Shown piece after piece: positions 29,282 through 43,057 of a stretch of 64,000 nucleotides of DNA (its first letter is position 1; each line of letters begins with the position of its first letter). The DNA lies in contig JAGRCP010000048.1 of the NCBI GenBank assembly GCA_020433455.1, positions 1-64,000 on the forward strand, in the 5' to 3' direction. The DNA comes from Caldilineaceae bacterium (lineage in GTDB: Bacteria > Chloroflexota > Anaerolineae > Caldilineales > Caldilineaceae). The notes beneath the pieces are model-generated. The model saw only the letters and a list, made by a program, of their open reading frames with translations, ran no database searches and was not told the origin of the DNA. Both the position numbers and the translations under genes were made by a program.

Positions 29282-30301
29282 ATGAATTATTGGACAATTT
29301 TCTTTTTAGGCGTCTTTGTGGGCTGGTTGGTTGAATGGATTATCGATTGGCTTTTCTGGCGACGGACGCTGCGCAAAATTTATGATAACGAAACCTATCT
29401 GGAGCGTGAATTGGCTCTTGCCCGTTCTCAGTTGGGCGACGCCGACGCCGACGAGTCATACGTGAGCAAGCTCCAAACCCAGCTGAATATGGCCCGCATT
29501 GAAACGGCTTCCATCCGTCAGCAGCGGGACGCGCTACAGGCGGAGATGGATGCGCTCCACGCAGGAGCGGATCTCTCCGGGCTGGATGTGCGTTCCGGCC
29601 TGCTGGTCGATCTCGGTCCGGATGCGGCGGAAGTCGGGACCCCGGAGCAAGACAGCCCGACCTCTGATGCGGAGTCCCGCATCTACGTGCAGCGGGATGA
29701 TCTGGAGGTAATCAACGGAATTGGTCCGGTGTACGAAAAACGCCTCTATGCCGCGGGCGTTGAGACGTACGCACAGCTGGCGGCTTTATCGATCCAGGAA
29801 CTGGCCGAGTTGGTCCAGGCTGAGGATTGGCAGGAACTCGATTATGCAGGCTGGATTGCCCAGGCCGGCCAATTTGCCCAGGTGGCGCATCACGAACTGC
29901 TGCCCGACCGCCTGGAGGACATCTCGGGCATCGGCCCGGCCTATGCCAAGCGCCTGCGCGCGGCGGACATTCGCTCCTTTGAACAACTCTCCGCCTCATC
30001 GACCCGACAACTTGAAGAGATTCTCGGCAAGGGTCGCCTGGCCGATTATGCAAGCTGGATTGAGCAGGCCAAGCGGTATGCGCAACTGCTCAGTAACGAA
30101 CGCGTCCCCTCGGAGCTTGAGCGCATCAAGGGGATCGGCCCCGTTTTTGCCGCGCGCCTGGAACTGGCCGGCATTCACACTTTCCAGTCCCTTAGTCAAT
30201 TATCGGAAGCGCAGTTGCGTGAGATCATTGGTGAAGCGGGCTGGCCCTTGGTGAATTACGCCGGCTGGATGGCCCAGGCCCGCCGGTTGACCGAGAGGTA
30301 G
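29282..30301 (+). CDS. membrane-anchored triple helix-hairpin-helix protein
   Basis: 339 residues from an ATG behind AGGAG. The N-terminal WTIFFLGVFVGWLVEWIIDWLFW is a membrane anchor, followed by a short coiled coil (residues about 40-90) and a Pro/Glu/Asp linker. Three HhH-type repeats follow, each starting xIxGIGPxxxxRL and then xxFxxLxxLS: about residues 138-195, 208-265 and 277-335. Such domains bind DNA or proteins without sequence specificity. It may tether DNA or complexes to the membrane; function unknown. Confidence 0.78.
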   Translation: MNYWTIFFLGVFVGWLVEWIIDWLFWRRTLRKIYDNETYLERELALARSQLGDADADESYVSKLQTQLNMARIETASIRQQRDALQAEMDALHAGADLSGLDVRSGLLVDLGPDAAEVGTPEQDSPTSDAESRIYVQRDDLEVINGIGPVYEKRLYAAGVETYAQLAALSIQELAELVQAEDWQELDYAGWIAQAGQFAQVAHHELLPDRLEDISGIGPAYAKRLRAADIRSFEQLSASSTRQLEEILGKGRLADYASWIEQAKRYAQLLSNERVPSELERIKGIGPVFAARLELAGIHTFQSLSQLSEAQLREIIGEAGWPLVNYAGWMAQARRLTER

Positions 30302-30388: not shown

Positions 30389-32584
30389 CTACTCCCCGAC
30401 CATGACCTGCCAGACGTTGTTCACGGCTCCAACGCCGTTGTCTACGTTGATGGTCACCTCGTAAGTCCCTGCCGTCGTGTAGACGTGCTCGATCACCGGT
30501 CCGATGAGGGGCGGACTGTCGTCCCCCATTTGCCAGGTAAATGTGAGCGCCGGGTCCGACGCGGCCGCGTCGCCGGCATCGATACGGATGCGTTGATTGA
30601 TGCGCGCGGCTATGGTAAAGACGCCATCGATAATTTGGGGTTGCTGCATGACGCCGTCCACCGTGACGACGACCGGCGACTCGGGGTCGGTCTGCGCAGG
30701 ATCCTCTCTGGCTGGCGTAGGCTCGACAACGGAATTGGTCGCGGTGGGCAGCGCGGAGGTCCTTCCAGGCGTGGGCGTATTGGCGGCGCTGTCGGCTTCC
30801 TGGGCGGTCTGCACCGCAATCTGATGCTGGATTTCGCTCCGCTCACCCTGATCGTCCGTAATTGTTAATTGCACGGCATAAAAGCCGGCCGTCGCGTAGG
30901 CCTTCTGTACGCTGGCTGCATTGGCCTGGGCTCCGTCGCCAAAATCCCACTCGAATCGGACGATGGGCGCGCTCGATTGGGAATTGCCGGCATAAAAGGG
31001 AATTGTTTCACCGACCTGTGCCTGACTTGGTGCGTCAATAATGGCGGCCGGCGCAGCGAACAGAGTTTGCTCCTCCCCCTCATCCTCAATGCGAATCTGC
31101 TGGGTGACGCTGTCGCTCATGCCCCGGGCGTCGGTAATTGTGAGCGTGACGTTGTAAATGTCGGGCCGGCTGTAGGTGTGTATCGTATCAAAGCCCCTGG
31201 TGCTGGCTCCGTCGCCAAAATCCCATACAGCCTGAGACGCCTGGTTGTCCGGAATGAACCCGGAAATAAAGCCCGAGTCGTAGGCGGAAAAGGCGATTTC
31301 CTGGCCGACTTTACCCCGACTTTCGGCCTGAATCAGCGCCATGGGCGGAACGGCCTCGCCGCCTTGCTTCCAGCCCGTCAGGGTCAGCCCTCCCTCCGGT
31401 CCGGACTTGGCATATTCTACGCGCACGCTGTGACGCCCCGCCTCCAGCAACCCCGTTTGTACGCTGATGGTGCGCTGCTTTCGGGTCTCCCAATCGTCAA
31501 TCAGCAGCCGCCCGTCCAGCCATAGCCGCAGGGATCCCTCTACATCGGCGGTGATAATGTAGTCGTCCGGCTTTACCCGATAGGACTGAGTCCAGCGCGC
31601 GGACCAGCCGCTGGGGGGCAGTTCGGGTATAGGCGGTTCGGTGCTCCACTCTCCGGAGATGATCCGCTCGTTGCGCGTCAACACGGGGGGCTCGCCCAAC
31701 GTTAGGTTGTCATAATATTCGGCCCGCCAATCGGGATATCCCGGGCTGTAGCTTGCATCCAGCCGGATGAGCGCCGCACCCTTGCCCTGAAAATAATCGA
31801 CCCGAATGGTGTGGAGCCCCGCGGCCAAATTGATGTTGGCGCTGTACGTGCGCACTTCGCCTGCTTGCCAGCCGTCGATGATGAGGCGATCGTCGATATA
31901 GAGGCGCGCGCCGTCATCGGCCCATAGCTCGAAAGAATAGAGGCCGTCGGTCAGCACGCGGCTTAATGTCCAACGCGCCGACCAATCCGTCGCGGGCATT
32001 TCCGGAGCCGGCGCTGTCTCTTCCCACTGGTAGTCGATGTGCTCATCGGCGCGGACGAGGACCGGTTCGCCCTGAAGCGAACGATTGGAGAAATATTCGG
32101 CCCGCCAGGCGGTGAGGGATAGCGGCGGCCCTCGGGTGGGCGCGGGGAGGAGCGGCGCATCCTCTACCGGCATGAGGCGCGGATCGGCCCCCGTGATGGC
32201 GCTTACGGATATCCAGCCGGCGGTTCCTGCGTCGTCCAGGGCCACGACCGCCCAATCGCCGTCGCTGCTGCTGCCGGTAACGCGGATGCTTTTTCCTGCC
32301 GGCAGCATATCGATGATGGGATAGCCGTCTCCCGGACCGGCTAACACCTGGGCGATACTGCTTGTGGCAAATTGGGGGCTATCGAGTCCGCCTGGGTTGC
32401 TTGCGTCTGTTTCATCGGACTGCCCATTTTCAGACGGCGCGGCCTCGGTTGCGTGGTTGTTTTCCTCTGATGCTGGTTGCCTGGTCCAGCGTGCTGTAAG
32501 TCCAATCATCAGGAGGAGGAGCAATCCGCCCAGGCCGGCAAGAAGCATGCTTTTTGCCGGCGAACGATTCGTCCGATCATTCAT
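30389..32584 (-). CDS. SH3/PA14/PKD multi-domain surface protein
   Basis: 731 residues. An N-terminal membrane anchor (residues about 11-29) and Ser/Glu-rich stretch are followed by a bacterial SH3-like segment (about 80-135), two PA14 domains (about 157-280 and 283-410, each with DGxxLYIDDRLIIDGW or LRLWLDGRLLIDDW), and PKD domains at about 425-505 (DFGDGAST), 520-600 (DFGDGAQANA) and 640-730. PA14 and PKD domains often bind glycans or proteins outside the cell. It shares its PA14-PKD architecture with the next gene. Confidence 0.8.
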   Translation of the reverse strand: MNDRTNRSPAKSMLLAGLGGLLLLLMIGLTARWTRQPASEENNHATEAAPSENGQSDETDASNPGGLDSPQFATSSIAQVLAGPGDGYPIIDMLPAGKSIRVTGSSSDGDWAVVALDDAGTAGWISVSAITGADPRLMPVEDAPLLPAPTRGPPLSLTAWRAEYFSNRSLQGEPVLVRADEHIDYQWEETAPAPEMPATDWSARWTLSRVLTDGLYSFELWADDGARLYIDDRLIIDGWQAGEVRTYSANINLAAGLHTIRVDYFQGKGAALIRLDASYSPGYPDWRAEYYDNLTLGEPPVLTRNERIISGEWSTEPPIPELPPSGWSARWTQSYRVKPDDYIITADVEGSLRLWLDGRLLIDDWETRKQRTISVQTGLLEAGRHSVRVEYAKSGPEGGLTLTGWKQGGEAVPPMALIQAESRGKVGQEIAFSAYDSGFISGFIPDNQASQAVWDFGDGASTRGFDTIHTYSRPDIYNVTLTITDARGMSDSVTQQIRIEDEGEEQTLFAAPAAIIDAPSQAQVGETIPFYAGNSQSSAPIVRFEWDFGDGAQANAASVQKAYATAGFYAVQLTITDDQGERSEIQHQIAVQTAQEADSAANTPTPGRTSALPTATNSVVEPTPAREDPAQTDPESPVVVTVDGVMQQPQIIDGVFTIAARINQRIRIDAGDAAASDPALTFTWQMGDDSPPLIGPVIEHVYTTAGTYEVTINVDNGVGAVNNVWQVMVGE

Positions 32585-32600: not shown

Positions 32601-32680
32601 AGTGAAACTCGGCGGAAATTCACATGCAGGTTCTATCAGGGATAAACTCAGCGAATTTCCGCCGTGGTATTCACGCCGAA
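32601..32680 (+). repeat. dispersed leader element, copy 2 with 12-bp stem
   Basis: CGGCGGAAATTC (32610-32621) and GAATTTCCGCCG (32653-32664) form a perfect 12-bp stem with a 31-nt loop, followed by GTGGTATTCACGCCG. It aligns gaplessly over 70 columns with 11751-11820 (about 76 per cent). It occupies the gap between the two PA14 genes. No T-run follows the stem, so it is not an ordinary terminator. Confidence 0.85.
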
Positions 32681-32685
32681 TTGTA

Positions 32686-35600
32686 TTAGGGGACGGAGAC
32701 GGTCCAGTTCGTCGTGTCGCTCTGCCCGTTCTGGTTGGTTACGGTAAGTTGAATGGTGTATTCGCCCGCCGCAGGAAATTGCAGGGTGATCTCCGGCTCG
32801 TTGTACACAGTGCCCGACGCAATCCATTGATACCCGTTCTCTGCCAGTGGGGCTCCGCCCGTTCCGGACATCAACGCACTAAAGACTATCTGCTGATTTG
32901 CCTGCACCTGGACAATTTCGCCGCGCTCATCATTGCCGATTACCTGCACAGGCGCGCCGTTGATCGTCGCCTGGATGACTGCCGTGGGCGGATTGCCCGT
33001 GACGGGCACTTCACCGGGCAGGGTCGGCGTGGGCGTCGGCTGGGGCGACTCGCCTGTTACAGGCGTAAAGGTCGGCGTGGGCGTCATCTCTCCCACCGGC
33101 GTTGCTTCACCTCCCGGCGGCGCTTCCTGCTGAGCGGGCGCAGGCGTGGGCGTCGCGGGGAGAGGCGTAGGAGCCACCGGCGTTGCCGTGGGGATCAGCT
33201 GCTCGCTGGATGGGACGGGCGGCGGAGCCTGGCCGATAAGAATTAGCCTGCTGTCAGTGCCCTGTAGCCCCTGATCATCCGTGACGGTGAGGGTGACATT
33301 GTAGACCCCCGGTACGCTGTAGCTTTTGGTGACCTGCGCCGCACCGGCTGTGGTGTCATCACCGAAGTCCCAGGCAAAAGTGATGATCGGATTGGTGCTG
33401 TCGGATTGCCGGGCGTCGAAGTTCATCACATTGCCCACCGTACCCAGCCGCAGAGAGTCAATCGCGGCATCGGGCGCACTGAGAGGATTGGGCGCGGTCG
33501 GTTCTTCATCCACTCGAATCTGGCCGGATGTGGCGTTGGTTCTGCCCTGATCGTCCGTCACGGTGAGGGTGACGCTGTAGATGCCCGCCTCCTCGTAGAC
33601 GTGTTCGGCCTGAATGCCTGCGCCCGTGGCGCCGTCGCCCCATTCCCAGGCATAATCGACCAGCTCGCTCTGGTCCGCTACGGATTCTCCCGCGTTCAGC
33701 AAAACGTTCTGCCCAATTCGGGCCCGGGTCGGGCCGCGGAAGACGGCCTGAGGCGTTCTGCCGGGGATGGCGGGCTGCCAGCCAAGCTGGACGCGACCGG
33801 CCAGATCTGTTTTGGCGTAATCGATTCGCAGGTCGTGCTCGCCTGCTTCCATCACCTGGGAGCGTGCGCTCAGCGTGCGCATTTCCTGCTCGTTCCAGCT
33901 GTCGATGAGCAGCACGCCGTCCAGCCACAGGCGTACGCCGCCTGCTGCCTGGATGGTGAAGCGATACGCCATTTGATCGAAAGCGGTCCGGCTACTCCAG
34001 CGTACCGACCAGTTATTGGCAGGAATGCCGGGAATCGGCTCGTTCTGGCCCCACGTATAGTTGAGCGATTCCTCATTGCGCACCACGGCCGGCTCGCCCT
34101 GGATGTCGGGATTGGTGAAATATTCCGCCTTCCAGTCGGGGTAGCGGCTAGTCAGGACCATATTTGCGCGTACGGCGGCATTTCCTTCGCCCGGGCGATA
34201 CTCAACCTGGATGGTATGCGGTCCCCGCCCCAGATTTAACGGAACGCTGTGAGCGGTTGGAATCTCCATATCCCAATAGTCCAACACGGGCACTTCGTTG
34301 ATCCAGACGCGTATGCCGCCGTCGCCAAAGACGTTGAGGTGATAGGTTCCGGCCGGGAGTTCGCGTACGATTGTCCAGCGCACGGAGAAGTTGTCGGCTG
34401 TAACCTCGGGCGCAGGCGCTTCCGTGCCCCAGGAAAAGTCGATCATGCTGTCCTGGCGGGTTAAGGCCGGCGGGCCGGCGACTTCATCGTTGTTGAAGTA
34501 CTCGCCTTCCCAATTGAGCAACGCGTTGACCGGCTCGATGCCGACGGGCTCTAATGTAAACGCAGCCGTGACGGGCTGTTCGGCCGATGCAATGCCCTCG
34601 CTATAGAAAAACTCAGTCAGGAGGAGCGCTAATTGGGGCAGCGCTTCATCCAGCATTTCATGGGATGCGCCGTCTATCACGACCTCCCGGCCGTTCTCCA
34701 GCCCCGTCAGCATGGCTTCCGCATTGGCAGCCGGCGCCAGGGCGTCCATGCTGCCGCTGACCAGGAGGATGGGAATATCGCTTGTCAGCGGGTTCCGAAA
34801 AGCCTCATCCAGCGCGGGATCGCCTACCCGGGGGCAAAGCTCCGCCCAGACGCCGTTGATGGCATTGCCCAGCAGCGCCTCTTCGGCCTGGGTCGTAATC
34901 GCTTCCTGGCGCGCGGGGCCGGCGGATGAAGCGCAACGCACCATAACGGGCGTCAGGTTGTCGCCTGCCTGACGACGGTAGGTCAAGGCCTGGCGGGCGG
35001 CCCAGGAATAGTCGCCCTGAGCCATTTCGGCATAGCGGGCGGGCAGGCTCCGCTGGGTAGAGTTCGCCAGGGCCTGCGCCGTGACGTACTGGATATCGCC
35101 TCGGCTGATGGGAACCTGGACGGGCAGACCGCTGACGGGATCATCGGTGAAGACGGTTATGGGCCCTGCCGAGAGGCGATCCAGCACGGCCGCGACCGTG
35201 GCGCGGAAGTCAGGCATTTGCGGCCCCAGAACGGGATCCGCGTTGATGCGGCTCTCCAGGAGGGCCAGTTGATTTTCCACATCGGCAGGCAACACGGTTA
35301 GCTGATCCGGCCCCTGTACCAACAGTAGGGCGGCCCGGGCGATGGACTCGGGCGCGGCTTTGATGAGGGCTGCGCCCACATGGCTGCCGTATCCAATGCC
35401 CAGCAGGTTGATCTCCTCGTATCCCAGGGCCCGGCGCATGGCGTCCACATCGTTCGCCATCTCTTGCGCGTTGTAGGCGGCCGGATCAATGCCCGCATCC
35501 TGCCACTGCTGATAACAATGCGCGTAGTAATCGCCCAGTCGGGTTGCAATGCGCCTGTAGGTGGGCGGATTGGTGAAAAAGTTGCCGAAGCGCTGGGAGC

Positions 35601-36042
35601 AGCTCAGGCGGGGCCGGGCGTCGCCCATGCCCCGGGGCTCCATCATAATGATGTCCGACTGGCCGCCGAAGATGGCGGAAAGTGCCAGAAATTGTTCGCC
35701 CATCTCCGTCAGCGTGCGGCCGTTAAGGGGGGAATCGGTCAGAACGATTACCGGTAAGTCGGGCTCGTCGGCCGCGGTGCGATAGCGGAGCGCCGAGACT
35801 TCAATCGCCGCGTCATTAGCGCTTTCCTCGGCGGTCAGGCGCAGCCACTCGACCATGATTGTGGGCTGATCGTCATTCTCCAGCAGGAAGGGCGCAACCA
35901 GCACGGCCGGCGTGTCGGAAGGCGCGGCGCGCTGAGCCGTCAGCGGGCGCGGCGCAACAGCTATGATCAGCGCGCCCATGAGCAGGATGACAAGCGTGGC
36001 TTGCAGCGCGGATCGGGTTGTAAAACGTATGCCGCTGGGCAT
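32686..36042 (-). CDS. alpha/beta-hydrolase-like domain with PA14 and PKD domains, nucleophile Ser missing
   Basis: 1118 residues. A signal or anchor helix (about 13-30) is followed by a TAP-like alpha/beta-hydrolase region (about 60-480). The elbow, normally GxSYG, reads GIGYGS, so the nucleophile Ser is Gly217 (codon GGA, 35392-35394). The acid (SGSMDALAP) and His (GASHEM) positions are kept. Two PA14 domains follow (about 510-635 and 640-765), then PKD domains (about 775-850 and 870-945, DFGDDTTAG), a long Thr-Pro linker, and a final Ig-like/PKD domain (about 1025-1118). ATG behind AGAGG. The Ser loss suggests a binding rather than enzymatic role, unless a nearby Ser takes over. Confidence 0.82.
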   Translation of the reverse strand: MPSGIRFTTRSALQATLVILLMGALIIAVAPRPLTAQRAAPSDTPAVLVAPFLLENDDQPTIMVEWLRLTAEESANDAAIEVSALRYRTAADEPDLPVIVLTDSPLNGRTLTEMGEQFLALSAIFGGQSDIIMMEPRGMGDARPRLSCSQRFGNFFTNPPTYRRIATRLGDYYAHCYQQWQDAGIDPAAYNAQEMANDVDAMRRALGYEEINLLGIGYGSHVGAALIKAAPESIARAALLLVQGPDQLTVLPADVENQLALLESRINADPVLGPQMPDFRATVAAVLDRLSAGPITVFTDDPVSGLPVQVPISRGDIQYVTAQALANSTQRSLPARYAEMAQGDYSWAARQALTYRRQAGDNLTPVMVRCASSAGPARQEAITTQAEEALLGNAINGVWAELCPRVGDPALDEAFRNPLTSDIPILLVSGSMDALAPAANAEAMLTGLENGREVVIDGASHEMLDEALPQLALLLTEFFYSEGIASAEQPVTAAFTLEPVGIEPVNALLNWEGEYFNNDEVAGPPALTRQDSMIDFSWGTEAPAPEVTADNFSVRWTIVRELPAGTYHLNVFGDGGIRVWINEVPVLDYWDMEIPTAHSVPLNLGRGPHTIQVEYRPGEGNAAVRANMVLTSRYPDWKAEYFTNPDIQGEPAVVRNEESLNYTWGQNEPIPGIPANNWSVRWSSRTAFDQMAYRFTIQAAGGVRLWLDGVLLIDSWNEQEMRTLSARSQVMEAGEHDLRIDYAKTDLAGRVQLGWQPAIPGRTPQAVFRGPTRARIGQNVLLNAGESVADQSELVDYAWEWGDGATGAGIQAEHVYEEAGIYSVTLTVTDDQGRTNATSGQIRVDEEPTAPNPLSAPDAAIDSLRLGTVGNVMNFDARQSDSTNPIITFAWDFGDDTTAGAAQVTKSYSVPGVYNVTLTVTDDQGLQGTDSRLILIGQAPPPVPSSEQLIPTATPVAPTPLPATPTPAPAQQEAPPGGEATPVGEMTPTPTFTPVTGESPQPTPTPTLPGEVPVTGNPPTAVIQATINGAPVQVIGNDERGEIVQVQANQQIVFSALMSGTGGAPLAENGYQWIASGTVYNEPEITLQFPAAGEYTIQLTVTNQNGQSDTTNWTVSVP

Positions 36043-36149: not shown

Positions 36150-36177
36150 AGTATAGCATAGCCCCAATGTGGGCCAA
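36150..36177 (-). promoter_or_regulatory. promoter of hydrolase/PA14 gene
   Basis: Minus strand TTGGCC (36172-36177), 16-bp spacer and TATACT (36150-36155), about 107 bp upstream of the ATG. The rest of the 36043-36336 region holds no gene beyond the MFS leader. Confidence 0.4.
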
Positions 36178-36336
36178 ATGCTGCCGGGAGGCTCGCTGCA
36201 CGATATTTTCGTAATTTTATCGTCCCGCTTCGGATCGCTTTCGATTGGCTTTTATAGACGGCAGCCATTACCATATAAGGATAGCTCTGTCGTTGCGGCC
36301 GTTTATCGACCGCGTCCTGTCGCCCTGAGGTCTATC

Positions 36337-37803
36337 ATGCCTGCTAAGTGTGCTCCCGCTCCCGACGTTCCAGCCGTCGGAGTCTCCGCTTACCCTGCTG
36401 CGCAACCCAAACAGAATATTGACATAAGTCAAGACTCTGCCAAGCAGGGCATCGGCGATCGGCGTCTGGTCTTTTTCCTCATGGCGCCGACCCTCCTCAT
36501 GGTGCTGACCGCCTCGAGCTTTGGCGTGGCGTTGCCCGCGATTCGCACCCACTTCGCGATGGGCGCTGATGCTGCGGCCTGGATGGTGACGGCCTACACC
36601 CTGCCCTTCATGATGTTTATGCCCCTGTACGGCCGCTTGGGAGACGCACTGGGCAAGCGCAACCTCCTGGTGGCGGGCATGGGTTTGTTCTTTGCCGGCA
36701 CGCTGCTGCTCTTTCAGGCTCAGCGTTTGCCCCTCTTTGTTGCGGGGCGCGTGATCCAGGGCGTGGGGTTGGCGGCCGTTTCGCCGTTGAGCATGGCCAT
36801 CATCTCGCAACGTTTTCCGCCCCATCGACGCGGGCAGGCGCTGGGCTTGTGGAATTCAGCCGGGCCGTTGACGGGAATTCTGGCCCCGCTTATCGCCGGG
36901 CTGCTGATCGACGCCGTGGGCTGGCGGATGACTTTTTTGCCGCTCTTGATTGTTGCGCCCCTGGCCTCAGCCGTGATTTTTTGGGGAATTCCCTCATCTG
37001 GGCGGACCGTGAGGCTGAGCTATTTGCGCCGTTTCGATTGGCCCGGCGTGCTGCTCCTGGCCGCGACGCTTACCTTGTTTGTCTTTTTTCTCTCCAGCCG
37101 GGTGATTACCGGCGTGGCGCCCCTGCACGACATGCGCTTGCTGACCGCCACGCTCGTTGCCGGCGTGCTGCTGGTCGTTTACGAGCAGCGAAAGGCCGAT
37201 CCCTTCCTCAACCTGGGGCTTTTTCGCACGCGCAGCCTGCGCATGGCCTCTATCATCGCCTGTACGCGTATGTTCGCCATGAGCGGCATCAATTTTCTCA
37301 TGCCCCTCTTCCTGGCGGATGTGCATCACCTACGCGCCTCGACCATTGGCCTCTTGGTCATGCTCGGTGCGACAACGCTCTTTATCACCATGTATTGGGG
37401 CGGACGCGGCGCTGATCGAGGGGGCACCCGCCGCCTGATTACCATGGGGCTGGGTATTCAGGCATTGGCCTTGCTCTCCTTCGGCTTTCTGCCCGCGGGC
37501 GCGCCCATTGCCCTGATTGCGGCGGGGTTGATGCTTCACGGCTTTGGCGCGGGCTTTCCCCTTGCGCCTCTTCACCGGGCCGCCATGAGCCAGGTGGAAG
37601 CCGCCCAGGCCGGCGCAGCCGCGGGCATTTACAGCATGATCCGCTTTAGCGGCACCCTGCTGGGCGCGACATTGGGCGGCGTGCTGCTGGAGCAGATGCT
37701 CAGCAATCACGTTCCTCCGGCCGGCGCCTACCGCACGGTTTTTTGCGTCATCGCGGCCGCGGCCGTAACCGGCGCGCTTCTGGGCCGGGTGATCGACAAT
37801 TAG
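36337..37803 (+). CDS. DHA2-type MFS transporter
   Basis: 488 residues and about 13-14 helices. LMVLTASSFGVALPAIRTHF and the loop GRLGDALGKRNLL (motif A), then GRVIQGVGLAAVSPLSMAII, match drug:H+ antiporter-2 transporters such as EmrB/QacA. The ATG at 36337 follows TGAGG and gives a normal length; the upstream ATG at 36169 would add a hydrophilic leader that does not look like coding sequence. Confidence 0.83.
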   Translation: MPAKCAPAPDVPAVGVSAYPAAQPKQNIDISQDSAKQGIGDRRLVFFLMAPTLLMVLTASSFGVALPAIRTHFAMGADAAAWMVTAYTLPFMMFMPLYGRLGDALGKRNLLVAGMGLFFAGTLLLFQAQRLPLFVAGRVIQGVGLAAVSPLSMAIISQRFPPHRRGQALGLWNSAGPLTGILAPLIAGLLIDAVGWRMTFLPLLIVAPLASAVIFWGIPSSGRTVRLSYLRRFDWPGVLLLAATLTLFVFFLSSRVITGVAPLHDMRLLTATLVAGVLLVVYEQRKADPFLNLGLFRTRSLRMASIIACTRMFAMSGINFLMPLFLADVHHLRASTIGLLVMLGATTLFITMYWGGRGADRGGTRRLITMGLGIQALALLSFGFLPAGAPIALIAAGLMLHGFGAGFPLAPLHRAAMSQVEAAQAGAAAGIYSMIRFSGTLLGATLGGVLLEQMLSNHVPPAGAYRTVFCVIAAAAVTGALLGRVIDN

Positions 37804-38879: not shown

Positions 38880-38989
38880 GTTGTGGAAGCCCCTAAATCC
38901 CGTCACTCGTTATTGTTCATGCGTTCCTCCTGCCTTTTGGTATACTATTAGATCTGCTAAGTGATTGCAGGATACAATCCGAGTTGAAG

Positions 38990-41900
38990 ATGAGAGCTAC
39001 CGGGATGCCCCAAATAGTAAAGATGGTATTTTTCTCCTGTCTGATTATTTGGTTGCTGTTTTCTGCCGATGTGGGTTACGCTCAGGAAAATAGTCCCCAT
39101 TCGGACCTCGTATTCACGCACCTTACGAAAGACAATGGATTGCCCTCCCTGGATGTCATCGACATCATTGAGGATAGCCAGGGATTTATGTGGTTTGGTA
39201 CGTCAGGCGGATTGGTCCGTTACGACGGCTATGAGATGAAGCTTTACGTCTATGATGAATTGGATGAGACGTCCATTTCCCATAATGCTGTTTGGTTTTT
39301 GTTTATAGACCAAAGCGACAACTTATGGGTCGGCACCATCAGGGGGGGGCTCAACCGTTACAATCGGGCAACGGATGACTTTACCCGCTTTTTTCATGAT
39401 CCTACTGATCCCACATCGTTGCCGGATGATGACCTGAAGTCCATGTACCAGACGTTGGACGGCATATTGTGGGTAGGCACCTCCAATGGGCTGGGGCGTT
39501 TCGATCCAGACGCAGGCTCCTTTGTGACCTATTATCACGACCCCGACGATCCCAACAGCATTGCCGACAATAGCATTCGCTCCATTTACGAAGACCCGGA
39601 AACAGGGGCTCTGTGGCTGGGGACGCGCCGCGGCGGTCTCTCTGTTTTTGATCCTGTAACGGAACGAGCCACTAATTATCAACACGATCCCGAAGACCCA
39701 ACCAGCCTCAGTGACAACTCGGTTGATGTCGTGTACGCAGCAGAAGACGGCACTATGTGGATCGGTACGCGTGACGGACTGAATCGATTTTTGCCTGAAA
39801 GCGAAACGTTCGTCCGCTATTATCACGATCCTGAAGATGACACCACGGTCGGAAGCAATACAATCGCCGCCTTACACGAAGATCATAAGGGGCGTTTTTG
39901 GGTGGGAACAAATATTGGCGCGGATATTTTTGACCCCGCAGCAGGGACGTTTACCCACTACGTCTACCGTGAAGATATTGCCACCAGCCTGGCAACGGGC
40001 TATATTCGTACAATCTACGAAGATCGGGTCGGGGCTATTTGGATTAGCACCCAAACCGGCGGCATAAGTCGCCTCTCAAGCCTCCCCGTCAATTTCATCA
40101 CCTATCTCCACAATTCAGACAATCCCCGGACTATCAGTAGCAACAACGTATCTTCTATCATGCCAGCCCCTCAGGGCGGCTATTGGGTGATTGCCCAAAA
40201 TGCCCTGAATTATTTCGACGGGCGGCAATTTACTCGCTATCCCCATGATCCCGATGATCCTAACGGATTGCCTGCCCAGATTGTCACGGTTCTGCCGGAT
40301 CAGCAGGGCAATCTCTGGATCGGCACCGAAGCCGGAAAATTTGGCTACTATGATTTAGAAACGGAAATATTTACGGCTTATCCCATTCCCCTGCCTGGCG
40401 GAACGGGCGTTGTGTCGTTGAAAACTCTGGATGCTCACGGCAATGTGTGGTTCGGCCATGAAGGCCGCGGCCTGGTGCGTTTTGATGGGGAAGAATTCAC
40501 CTTCTTTATGCCCGATGCCTCAAATTCGGATCCGAATAGTTTCCCCGATTTCTACGTGTCGGATGTCTACTACGATGTACAGCAGGATACCCTGTGGATA
40601 GGTACATCTACTCTGGTAAAATTGAATGAAGACGGCGAAACATTCACCCGCTACCCCTTGGACCCGAATAATCCCCTGTCTCTGGAAAATCGGATTCGCT
40701 ATATTTATCAATCCAGAAACGGGCAACTTTGGCTCAGTTCCCAAAATGGCCTGTATCGTTTTGATCCCGACACAGGGCTATATACCGCTCGCTATACGGC
40801 GGCAGACGGATTCCCGCATTTTCCGATCAATCAAATTGAAGAGGATGATGACGGTGTTTTGTGGATGAACGCAGTAGGCATGATCGTCCGGTTTAATCCA
40901 GATACATCCGCCGTTACGGCCTATGATATCGATGATGATCTGCCTTCTGAAAGCTTGCATGCGCTAACGGGGGGGGTACGCGGGGAGATGCTGGCCGGCG
41001 GTCTGGATGCGGGGCTAACTGTATTCTATCCTGATCGCATCGTTGATAACGTCAATATCCCGCCGGTTGTGTTGACCGAATTGGAACTCTTTAACCTGCC
41101 GGTGGAGATCGGCGCGGAAGACGGCATTTTGCCGGCGAACATAAACGTTCTAGATAAATTAGTCCTGCGTTTTGATCAAACCTTCCTGACGCTTGGATTT
41201 GCTGCGCTCAACTATGATCGGCCTGAAAAGAATCAGTACGCCTACATGTTGGAAGGCTTTGACAATACTTGGCGCGTAACGACAGTTGAGCGGCGCTTTG
41301 CCTCCTATACCAATATTCCTCCCGGCCACTATACGTTTCGCGTAAAGGCGTCGAACAACAGCGGGGTCTGGAATGAGGAGGGCGTTTCGCTGCTGCTGGA
41401 GGTCAAACCGCCTTGGTGGCAGACTCCCTGGGCTTATATTCTGTACACGTTAGGCGCTGTCGGCGCTATTCTCGGCCTTCTTCAATGGCGCACCTATTCC
41501 GTTGAGAAGCGGCACAAAGCGCTACAGTTGCAAGCGGAACGGGACGAGAATATTTTGGCGACGATTCCTACCGGGCTCATTTTAGTCAACCCGGAGCACC
41601 GGGTCGTTATGGGAAATCCTATTGCCAGAGAAGAATTGCCGATTCTTGCAGGCGTTGAAATTGGGGAAACGCTCGCTCATTTTGGCAGCAAGCCGATTGA
41701 ACAACTTTTGAACTCGCCGGACGACGGCTTGTGGCATGAGGTTTGCGTTGAAAACGGCTCGGGTGAACGCTATTTTGCTGTGCTGGCCCGGGCAATTATT
41801 GGTGAAGGCGCCCCGCATGATTGGCTTGTGGCCTTCCGGGATATTACGCTGGAGCGGAGCGTCCAGGAAAAAGCAATGACGCAGCAGCGATTAGCCTCCA

Positions 41901-43057
41901 TCGGGAATTTCACAGCGGGTATTGCCCATGATTTTAATAACATGCTTGCGGTCATTTTGTTGAACGCACAACTCCTGAAGAACACGATTGAGATGAATAC
42001 AGCGGCCGAAGCCCGCTGCGAGGCGTCTAAAACCCAACTTGAGCGCATATCGCATCAGGCTAATGCGGCCCATCAACTTATTAGCCAAATTCTGGACTAT
42101 AGCCGCCAAACCGTTATGGAGCGGCAGGCCATCGATCTCTCCACAGTCATTACGGAACAAGGGGATTTGTTGTCTAAATTGCTCACCAGCGATTTTACAT
42201 TAACCGTGAATCTGGATGGAGCAGAGGATTACTATATTTACGGTGATACGACTCAAATTCAACAGGTTTTGATGAATTTGGTGGCAAACGCGCGCGATGC
42301 CATGCCCCACGGGGGCGATATTGACGTACGCCTCTCGGTTTCCTACATGACGGAATCGGGCGGAACCGCTGAATCAAGCTTGCCGCGTGAATGGGTTGCG
42401 CTGGCGGTTCAGGATAAGGGGACCGGGATAACCGATGAAATGTTGCCCAGAATTTTTGAGCCTTTTGTTACGACAAAGCCCATTGGGAAAGGAACCGGCT
42501 TAGGCCTGGCCCAGGTTTCCGGCATTGTGAAGCAGCATGACGGTTACATTGATGTCCAAACAGAAATGGGGCGGGGCAGCACGTTTACGCTTTATTTTCC
42601 CAGATACGATGCGCCCATTGTGCACTTCCCCTCCCGGCCTGATTCAACCGACATTATGCTGGGGAATGGCGAAACGATTCTCCTGGTTGAGGACAATTCT
42701 GACTTGATGGAGACGCTGGGAGAGAGCCTGAAGATCATCAATTACCGGGTTTTATCCGCTTCAGACGGCGAAATGGCCTACCATATCTGGCAGGAACGCA
42801 ATGAAGAAATCGATATTGTTGTGACCGATATCGTGATGCCGAATATGAACGGTATCGATCTTTTTCATGCGGTGGACAAGGCTGGCGCAAAACAACCCTT
42901 CATTTTTATCGCTGGTCATCTTTTGAAGTCCGAGACAGAAGCGCAGTTTGACATGCTGCGGGCAAAAGGAAGGGTAGACTGGCTGCGCAAGCCGATTCAT
43001 CTAGGCGAGTTGTCAAGTATTTTGGCTATAGCGCTGCGTAACCAAAACATGGGCTAA
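38990..43057 (+). CDS. hybrid histidine kinase with two seven-bladed propellers
   Basis: About 1355 residues. A signal peptide or anchor is followed by 14 reg_prop blades (WVGT/WIGT-x-GLxRFDP units, about residues 55-690), enough for two seven-bladed beta-propellers, then a Y_Y_Y domain (about 715-805) and a membrane helix. Inside the cell come a PAS-like region, HisKA with HDFNN (His about 980), HATPase_c ([24 protein letters not shown]), and a C-terminal receiver with TDIVMP (Asp about 1280) and RKPI. There is no output domain or Hpt. The gene is visibly richer in A/T than its neighbours. A TTG at 38984 is an alternative start. Confidence 0.9.

Follow-up and report, generated by a model that had tools for sequence, protein, structure and literature searches.

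In neuroligins, glycine takes the place of the nucleophile serine. Together with the neurotactins and gliotactins, these proteins are described as carrying catalytically inactive cholinesterase-like domains, the neuroligins being involved in synaptic cell-cell interaction (PMC3017765). In bacteria, DUF3530 is described as an alpha/beta-hydrolase family that lacks the catalytic triad and is probably non-enzymatic (PMC11878206). The nucleophile at the elbow and the oxyanion hole are parts of the catalytic machinery of alpha/beta-hydrolases (PMC7034887). The PA14 pair of RsgI3 is an extracytoplasmic module for which pectin binding is reported (PMC4711584). Here, we describe a gene in which a TAP-like alpha/beta-hydrolase domain without its nucleophile is fused to a PA14 pair and to PKD repeats. 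It lies on contig JAGRCP010000048.1 (positions 1 to 64,000, forward strand) of the Caldilineaceae bacterium assembly GCA_020433455.1; we call this whole stretch of 64,000 nucleotides the window and the gene the focal gene. Its product, as its sequence and its relatives suggest, probably binds rather than cuts. We found no PA14/PKD-fused inactive hydrolase in a few searches of title listings of the open-licence literature, outside which most subscription journals lie.

Results

The focal gene occupies positions 32686-36042 on the minus strand (-), on which all of its features given below also lie, and encodes 1118 residues; reading frame, strand and coordinates are those of an earlier note on this DNA. 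Pfam assigns to it Abhydrolase_1 (PF00561, 41.3 bits against a cut-off of 25.8) and Abhydrolase_4, the 'TAP-like protein' family (PF08386, 23.7 bits against a cut-off of 21), both above cut-off, besides two PA14 and three PKD_4 stretches, in agreement with the TAP-like hydrolase, two PA14 and several PKD domains that the earlier note had listed. The hydrolase domain comprises residues 45-480 (34603..35910), and the solved chains nearest to it are Hip1/carboxylesterase A of Mycobacterium tuberculosis (7sfm, 5ugq), a secreted hydrolase (8e18) and TnmK2 (8g5t).

The active site of this domain was compared with that of the family in an alignment of 79 distinct proteins, to which 107 open reading frame matches to an alignment profile (A3) reduce; the focal protein is among them, a few are fragments, and the translated set stands apart from 15 loci of a PA14 search (L106-L120) and from many further listed matches without a locus. 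The elbow of the focal protein reads NLLGIGYGSHVG. Within it, the motif GIGYGSH (residues 215-221, 35380..35400) has glycine at position 217, encoded by GGA at 35392-35394, where 76 of the 79 members have serine; the only other glycine belongs to the orthologue described below, and a single member (L013) has glutamate. A second element is lost as well. The GGPG of the oxyanion loop is replaced by DSPL in the focal protein (residues 103-106; with the preceding residue T-D-S-P-L, residues 102-106, 35725..35739) and by DGPK in the orthologue, and these two are the only members with aspartate at the first position, which is glycine in 74 of the 76 that cover it (3 gaps). The DQRGxGxS motif, in turn, reads EPRGMGDA. 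At its first position (Glu135, 35638..35640), aspartate is found in 60 of the 77 covered members, asparagine in 9, glutamate in 5, glycine in 2 and alanine in 1, with 2 gaps; since three members with intact sites also have glutamate there, this exchange is not unique to the pair. The two remaining catalytic positions are kept: the acid, Asp433 (34744..34746), and the base, His461 (34660..34662), are each present in 75/75 covered members (4 gaps each). Codon and alignment thus bear out what the earlier note had said of the glycine at the nucleophile position and of the retained Asp and His; the loss of the oxyanion loop and the altered DQRGxGxS motif did not appear in it.

Is the loss confined to one genome? 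One close orthologue (G012, locus L002) emerged when we searched 61 near genomes, 396 of the class and 46 returned for the family. A second search of the class, centred on a different genome (395 genomes), returned G012 alone at an expectation value (E) of at most 1e-60, and all genomes that it listed had already appeared in the other searches. A scan of genome contigs with the single protein gave no match, the same kind of scan with an alignment (A2) gave the known orthologue only, and a scan of viral contigs with a further alignment (A5) gave no relatives. The orthologue comes from another genus, has the same PA14-PA14-PKD fusion and carries the elbow GVGFGSHVG, its glycine being encoded by GGC and not by the GGA of the window. 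Its reading frame leaves the contig; a second G012 contig, which overlaps the first by a 141-base end, carries a PKD domain, a Thr/Pro linker and a C-terminal PKD-like domain. The earlier note had proposed looking among homologues for conservation of the Ser-to-Gly change: the orthologue has it, whereas the distant homologues keep serine. Judged from these sequences, the loss of the nucleophile is real and inherited by the one orthologue found.

The nearest kin found outside the pair came to light when the two-row alignment was used to search 400 genomes of the phylum. They are two stand-alone proteins (G577, 478 residues, E 1.2e-112; G691, 475 residues, E 3.2e-103), both from a single different class of that phylum and 33% identical over the hydrolase domain, with an intact site (GGPG, GASYGSH, DQRG, Asp and His). 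Neither has a visible signal peptide or a fusion, and their neighbours are unrelated to those of the focal gene. A quick, unrooted tree, made with a short search from the 76 rows that have 300 residues or more, places the two glycine-bearing proteins together with a support of 99 in the Shimodaira-Hasegawa-like approximate likelihood ratio test (SH-aLRT) and joins them to the two stand-alone relatives with 99; a long-branched row (L016) joins this group with 93. The simplest reading of these two genomes would be that the loss happened once, in a common ancestor of the two proteins, along the branch on which the PA14/PKD fusion also arose. Pfam scans of 10 relatives, nine of which exceed the bare domain in length and three of which (L022, L032, L013) are cut at an end, gave neither a PA14 nor a PKD domain; other long frames among the matches listed lie outside those ten. 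The idea that such fusions are common in the family was rejected on this count (0/10).

One further family member has lost its serine. The protein at L051:11511-14234 (G005; also L013) is TAP-like, has glutamate at the nucleophile position (GGEYGAAVA) in a frame of 907 residues with an NlpE-like match upstream, and has a long branch in the tree; its substitution is apparently an independent loss.

Between the window and G012, the hydrolase domain (about 44-45% identical) is conserved to about the same degree as the PA14 and PKD1 domains (first PA14 50%, second PA14 58%, PKD1 42%), and 116/256 positions of the C-terminal part are identical. Within the hydrolase domain, conservation is uneven. 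We compared stretches of 24 residues, a length that we chose, at two positions set by the alignment, and found that the stretch around the oxyanion loop has the lowest identity of all 447 and that around the elbow ranks third; a narrower range gave the same ranks (lowest and third of 413). For comparison, we took 17 hand-chosen pairs of intact-site relatives, 45-69% identical, in which some proteins are reused so that the pairs are not independent. The oxyanion stretch was the lowest in none of the 16 intact pairs that gave a value, the poorest being the stand-alone pair (326 of 418), and the elbow stretch was well conserved in most intact pairs, not in all (182 of 404 in one). In this comparison, the fold generally conserves its elbow, and the freed oxyanion loop is what distinguishes the pair.

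From end to end, the focal gene (32686..36042) encodes an apparent signal peptide, the pseudo-hydrolase, two PA14 domains, two PKD domains, a Thr/Pro linker and a PKD-like domain. Residues 1-37 (35932..36042) form, by eye, an apparent Sec signal peptide or N-terminal anchor, and the orthologue begins with a comparable segment that ends, as in the focal protein, in AQRA (also by eye); judging from this N-terminus, the protein is probably exported. The first and second PA14 domains (residues 509-632, 34147..34518; residues 635-757, 33772..34140) were delimited by Pfam, solved-chain matches and a PA14 alignment, and the best solved matches of the pair are 6qdi (E 1.2e-29) and RsgI3 6qe7 (E 3.7e-29). 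By eye, we set the boundaries of the two PKD domains that follow (residues 762-846, 33505..33759; residues 853-938, 33229..33486), of the Thr/Pro-rich linker (residues 939-1017, 32992..33228), which the earlier note had also seen and which the orthologue shares, and of the C-terminal PKD-like domain (residues 1018-1118, 32689..32991), where a K319L-like_PKD match (residues 1081-1117) and the third PKD stretch fall.

Next to the focal gene, a tandem paralogue (30389..32584, (-)) has an N-terminal hydrophobic segment, an SH3_3 match (25.1 bits, under the cut-off of 27), two PA14 domains, PKD domains and a Thr/Pro linker; it has no hydrolase match, and where it aligns with the PA14-PKD part of the focal gene the identity is 35%. 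G012 has its counterpart, interrupted by one TAG codon. The SH3-like domain replaces the hydrolase on a like tail and the PA14 pair matches that of RsgI3; therefore, we infer that the tail may serve as a surface stalk whose PA14 pair docks on carbohydrate, and that the dead hydrolase would be one of two alternative heads of this stalk. Matches to the paralogue at E of at most 1e-20 occur in 50/61 near genomes, mostly over its PA14 part among the matches listed, and PA14-bearing proteins look widespread in the class.

The order of genes is common to both genomes: a helix-hairpin-helix protein with a hydrophobic N-terminus (29282..30301, (+); Pfam; 79/213 aligned positions identical to its syntenic counterpart), the PA14-PKD paralogue (-), the focal gene (-) and a divergently transcribed major facilitator superfamily (MFS) transporter, DHA2/EmrB-like by Pfam (36169..37803, (+); 248/485 aligned positions, 51%, identical). 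The exception is two DUF1269 genes (L121:12797-13957), which lie between paralogue and focal gene in G012 only. Further from the focal gene, both genomes have a flavin oxidoreductase, and positions 38984-43057 of the window encode a hybrid two-component protein of 1357 residues with propeller repeats (Reg_prop, Y_Y_Y), a histidine kinase and a receiver domain. In the interval from the focal gene to the paralogue downstream of it lies an inverted repeat with perfectly matching 12-base arms, 31 bases apart (32610-32621 and 32653-32664), possibly a terminator or regulatory hairpin. Across the window, no RNA family reached the gathering threshold.

Discussion

We consider it the probable reading that the focal protein carries a conserved pseudo-hydrolase which now serves as the binding or structural head of an exported and probably glycan-binding protein. 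Its N-terminal domain would descend from a TAP-like (S33-type) serine hydrolase, from which two needed parts have gone: glycine stands in place of the nucleophile serine, and the GGPG of the oxyanion-hole loop has become DSPL, or DGPK in the orthologue. These losses and the fusion to the PA14 pair and the PKD repeats may belong to one ancestral branch. In the exported protein, as its N-terminus predicts it to be, the PA14 pair would most likely dock on a polysaccharide, as its match to the RsgI3 pair suggests, while the PKD and Thr/Pro parts may act as spacers and the dead hydrolase as a head for ligand binding or protein contact, at the position taken by the SH3-like domain in the paralogue. 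The earlier note had suggested a large binding or scaffold protein; this was a reasonable inference, which the RsgI3 match of the PA14 pair now strengthens.

Several points weigh against this account. The combination of a glycine nucleophile position with the PA14-PKD fusion is seen in two sequences only, and the retained Asp433 and His461 hint at residual chemistry. Sugar-binding PA14 domains carry an acidic pair (DcisD). By eye, we found an Asp-Asp pair in one of six aligned PA14 domains, which belongs to the paralogue and not to the focal protein, and sugar binding is not assured, because this pair is not seen in the focal PA14 domains. As the elbow is well conserved in most intact pairs, its conservation is by itself no proof of a new function; moreover, the comparison pairs are mostly closer than the focal pair, share proteins and were picked by hand. 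Finally, AlphaFold on the two-row alignment gave a mean predicted local distance difference test (pLDDT) value of 38.4, i.e. an unusable model.

In a more specific form, which we put forward tentatively and regard as rather doubtful, the protein would follow a bacterial neuroligin-like strategy, in which a doubly disarmed, peptidase-type recognition head on a polysaccharide-binding cell-surface stalk reads a peptide or acyl ligand in its old pocket.

Could the domain still be an enzyme, though not a serine hydrolase? Alpha/beta-hydrolase folds with other chemistries exist, and Asp433 and His461, kept in both members of the pair, could perform acid-base chemistry of a lyase, isomerase or hydration type on a ligand beneath the elbow, whose stretch is among the most conserved of the domain (third of 447). 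However, the oxyanion loop varies freely within the pair, and a conserved new site at this loop is unlikely because it differs so freely between the two members. The immediate neighbours, i.e. the PA14-PKD paralogue and the MFS transporter, point to no substrate either. We thus hold a non-hydrolytic enzyme to be unlikely. Slightly less likely still, in our estimate, is that the hydrolase domain, now weakly constrained, is a vestige that persists because the PA14/PKD part is useful. In favour of this, the domain has lost two catalytic elements, and the tandem paralogue at 30389-32584 manages with a like tail and without a hydrolase; yet an open frame and the full domain length are kept across two genera at an identity near the level of the other domains, and around the elbow, Asp433 and His461 the two members resemble each other.

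An active hydrolase with a relocated nucleophile is very improbable. The candidate would be Ser220, three residues past the lost serine; the orthologue and the two stand-alone relatives have serine at this position too (GYGSH, GFGSH, SYGSH). Position 220, however, is threonine in 67/79 and serine in 10/79 members; since Thr or Ser there accompanies the normal nucleophile in intact members, Ser220 is an ordinary elbow residue, and the oxyanion loop is lost as well. A mistake in sequencing or assembly, or a mutation that recently inactivated the domain in one strain, which the earlier note had named as what would overturn its claim and for which the draft state of the window genome (172 contigs, single-base errors being possible in principle) could speak, has hardly any probability left, because the orthologue from another genus shares both the glycine, with a different codon, and the loss of the oxyanion loop.

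We found no support for the idea that the dead domain controls an active paralogue encoded elsewhere in its genome. A profile of ten intact-site TAP-like proteins matched, in the window genome, the focal gene and a 56-position part of a 283-residue frame only; such control is unlikely because no other full-length TAP-like match is present there.

The case provides a fairly clear before-and-after: the stand-alone relatives have an intact active site, and the focal protein and its orthologue are disarmed and carry adhesion-type domains besides an apparent export signal. Should the binding role prove right, the pair would be a simple system for asking why an old active site persists after its chemistry has been lost.

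How does the focal protein relate to the known systems? With the TAP-like/S33-type serine hydrolases it shares the Pfam family, the solved-chain matches and the Asp and His positions, but it lacks the nucleophile serine and the GGPG, two defining features of these enzymes, and is unlike them fused to PA14 and PKD domains. It resembles alpha/beta-hydrolase pseudoenzymes in that catalytic residues are lost and that the loss is common to an orthologue, of which one was found; DUF3530, however, is a different family in a different genomic setting. The likeness to the animal cholinesterase-like adhesion proteins would concern the manner of working only, i.e. an inactive hydrolase-family domain used for contact. 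These belong to a different hydrolase family, no cholinesterase profile is among the Pfam matches listed for the focal protein, its PA14 and PKD domains sit on a bacterial protein, and we claim no family kinship. The tandem PA14 pair of RsgI3 (6qe7; also 6qdi, a 'PA14 domain-containing protein') is alike in the sequence of the pair; in RsgI3, however, the pair is the sensor of an anti-sigma factor, whereas in the focal protein it stands between a dead hydrolase and PKD repeats.

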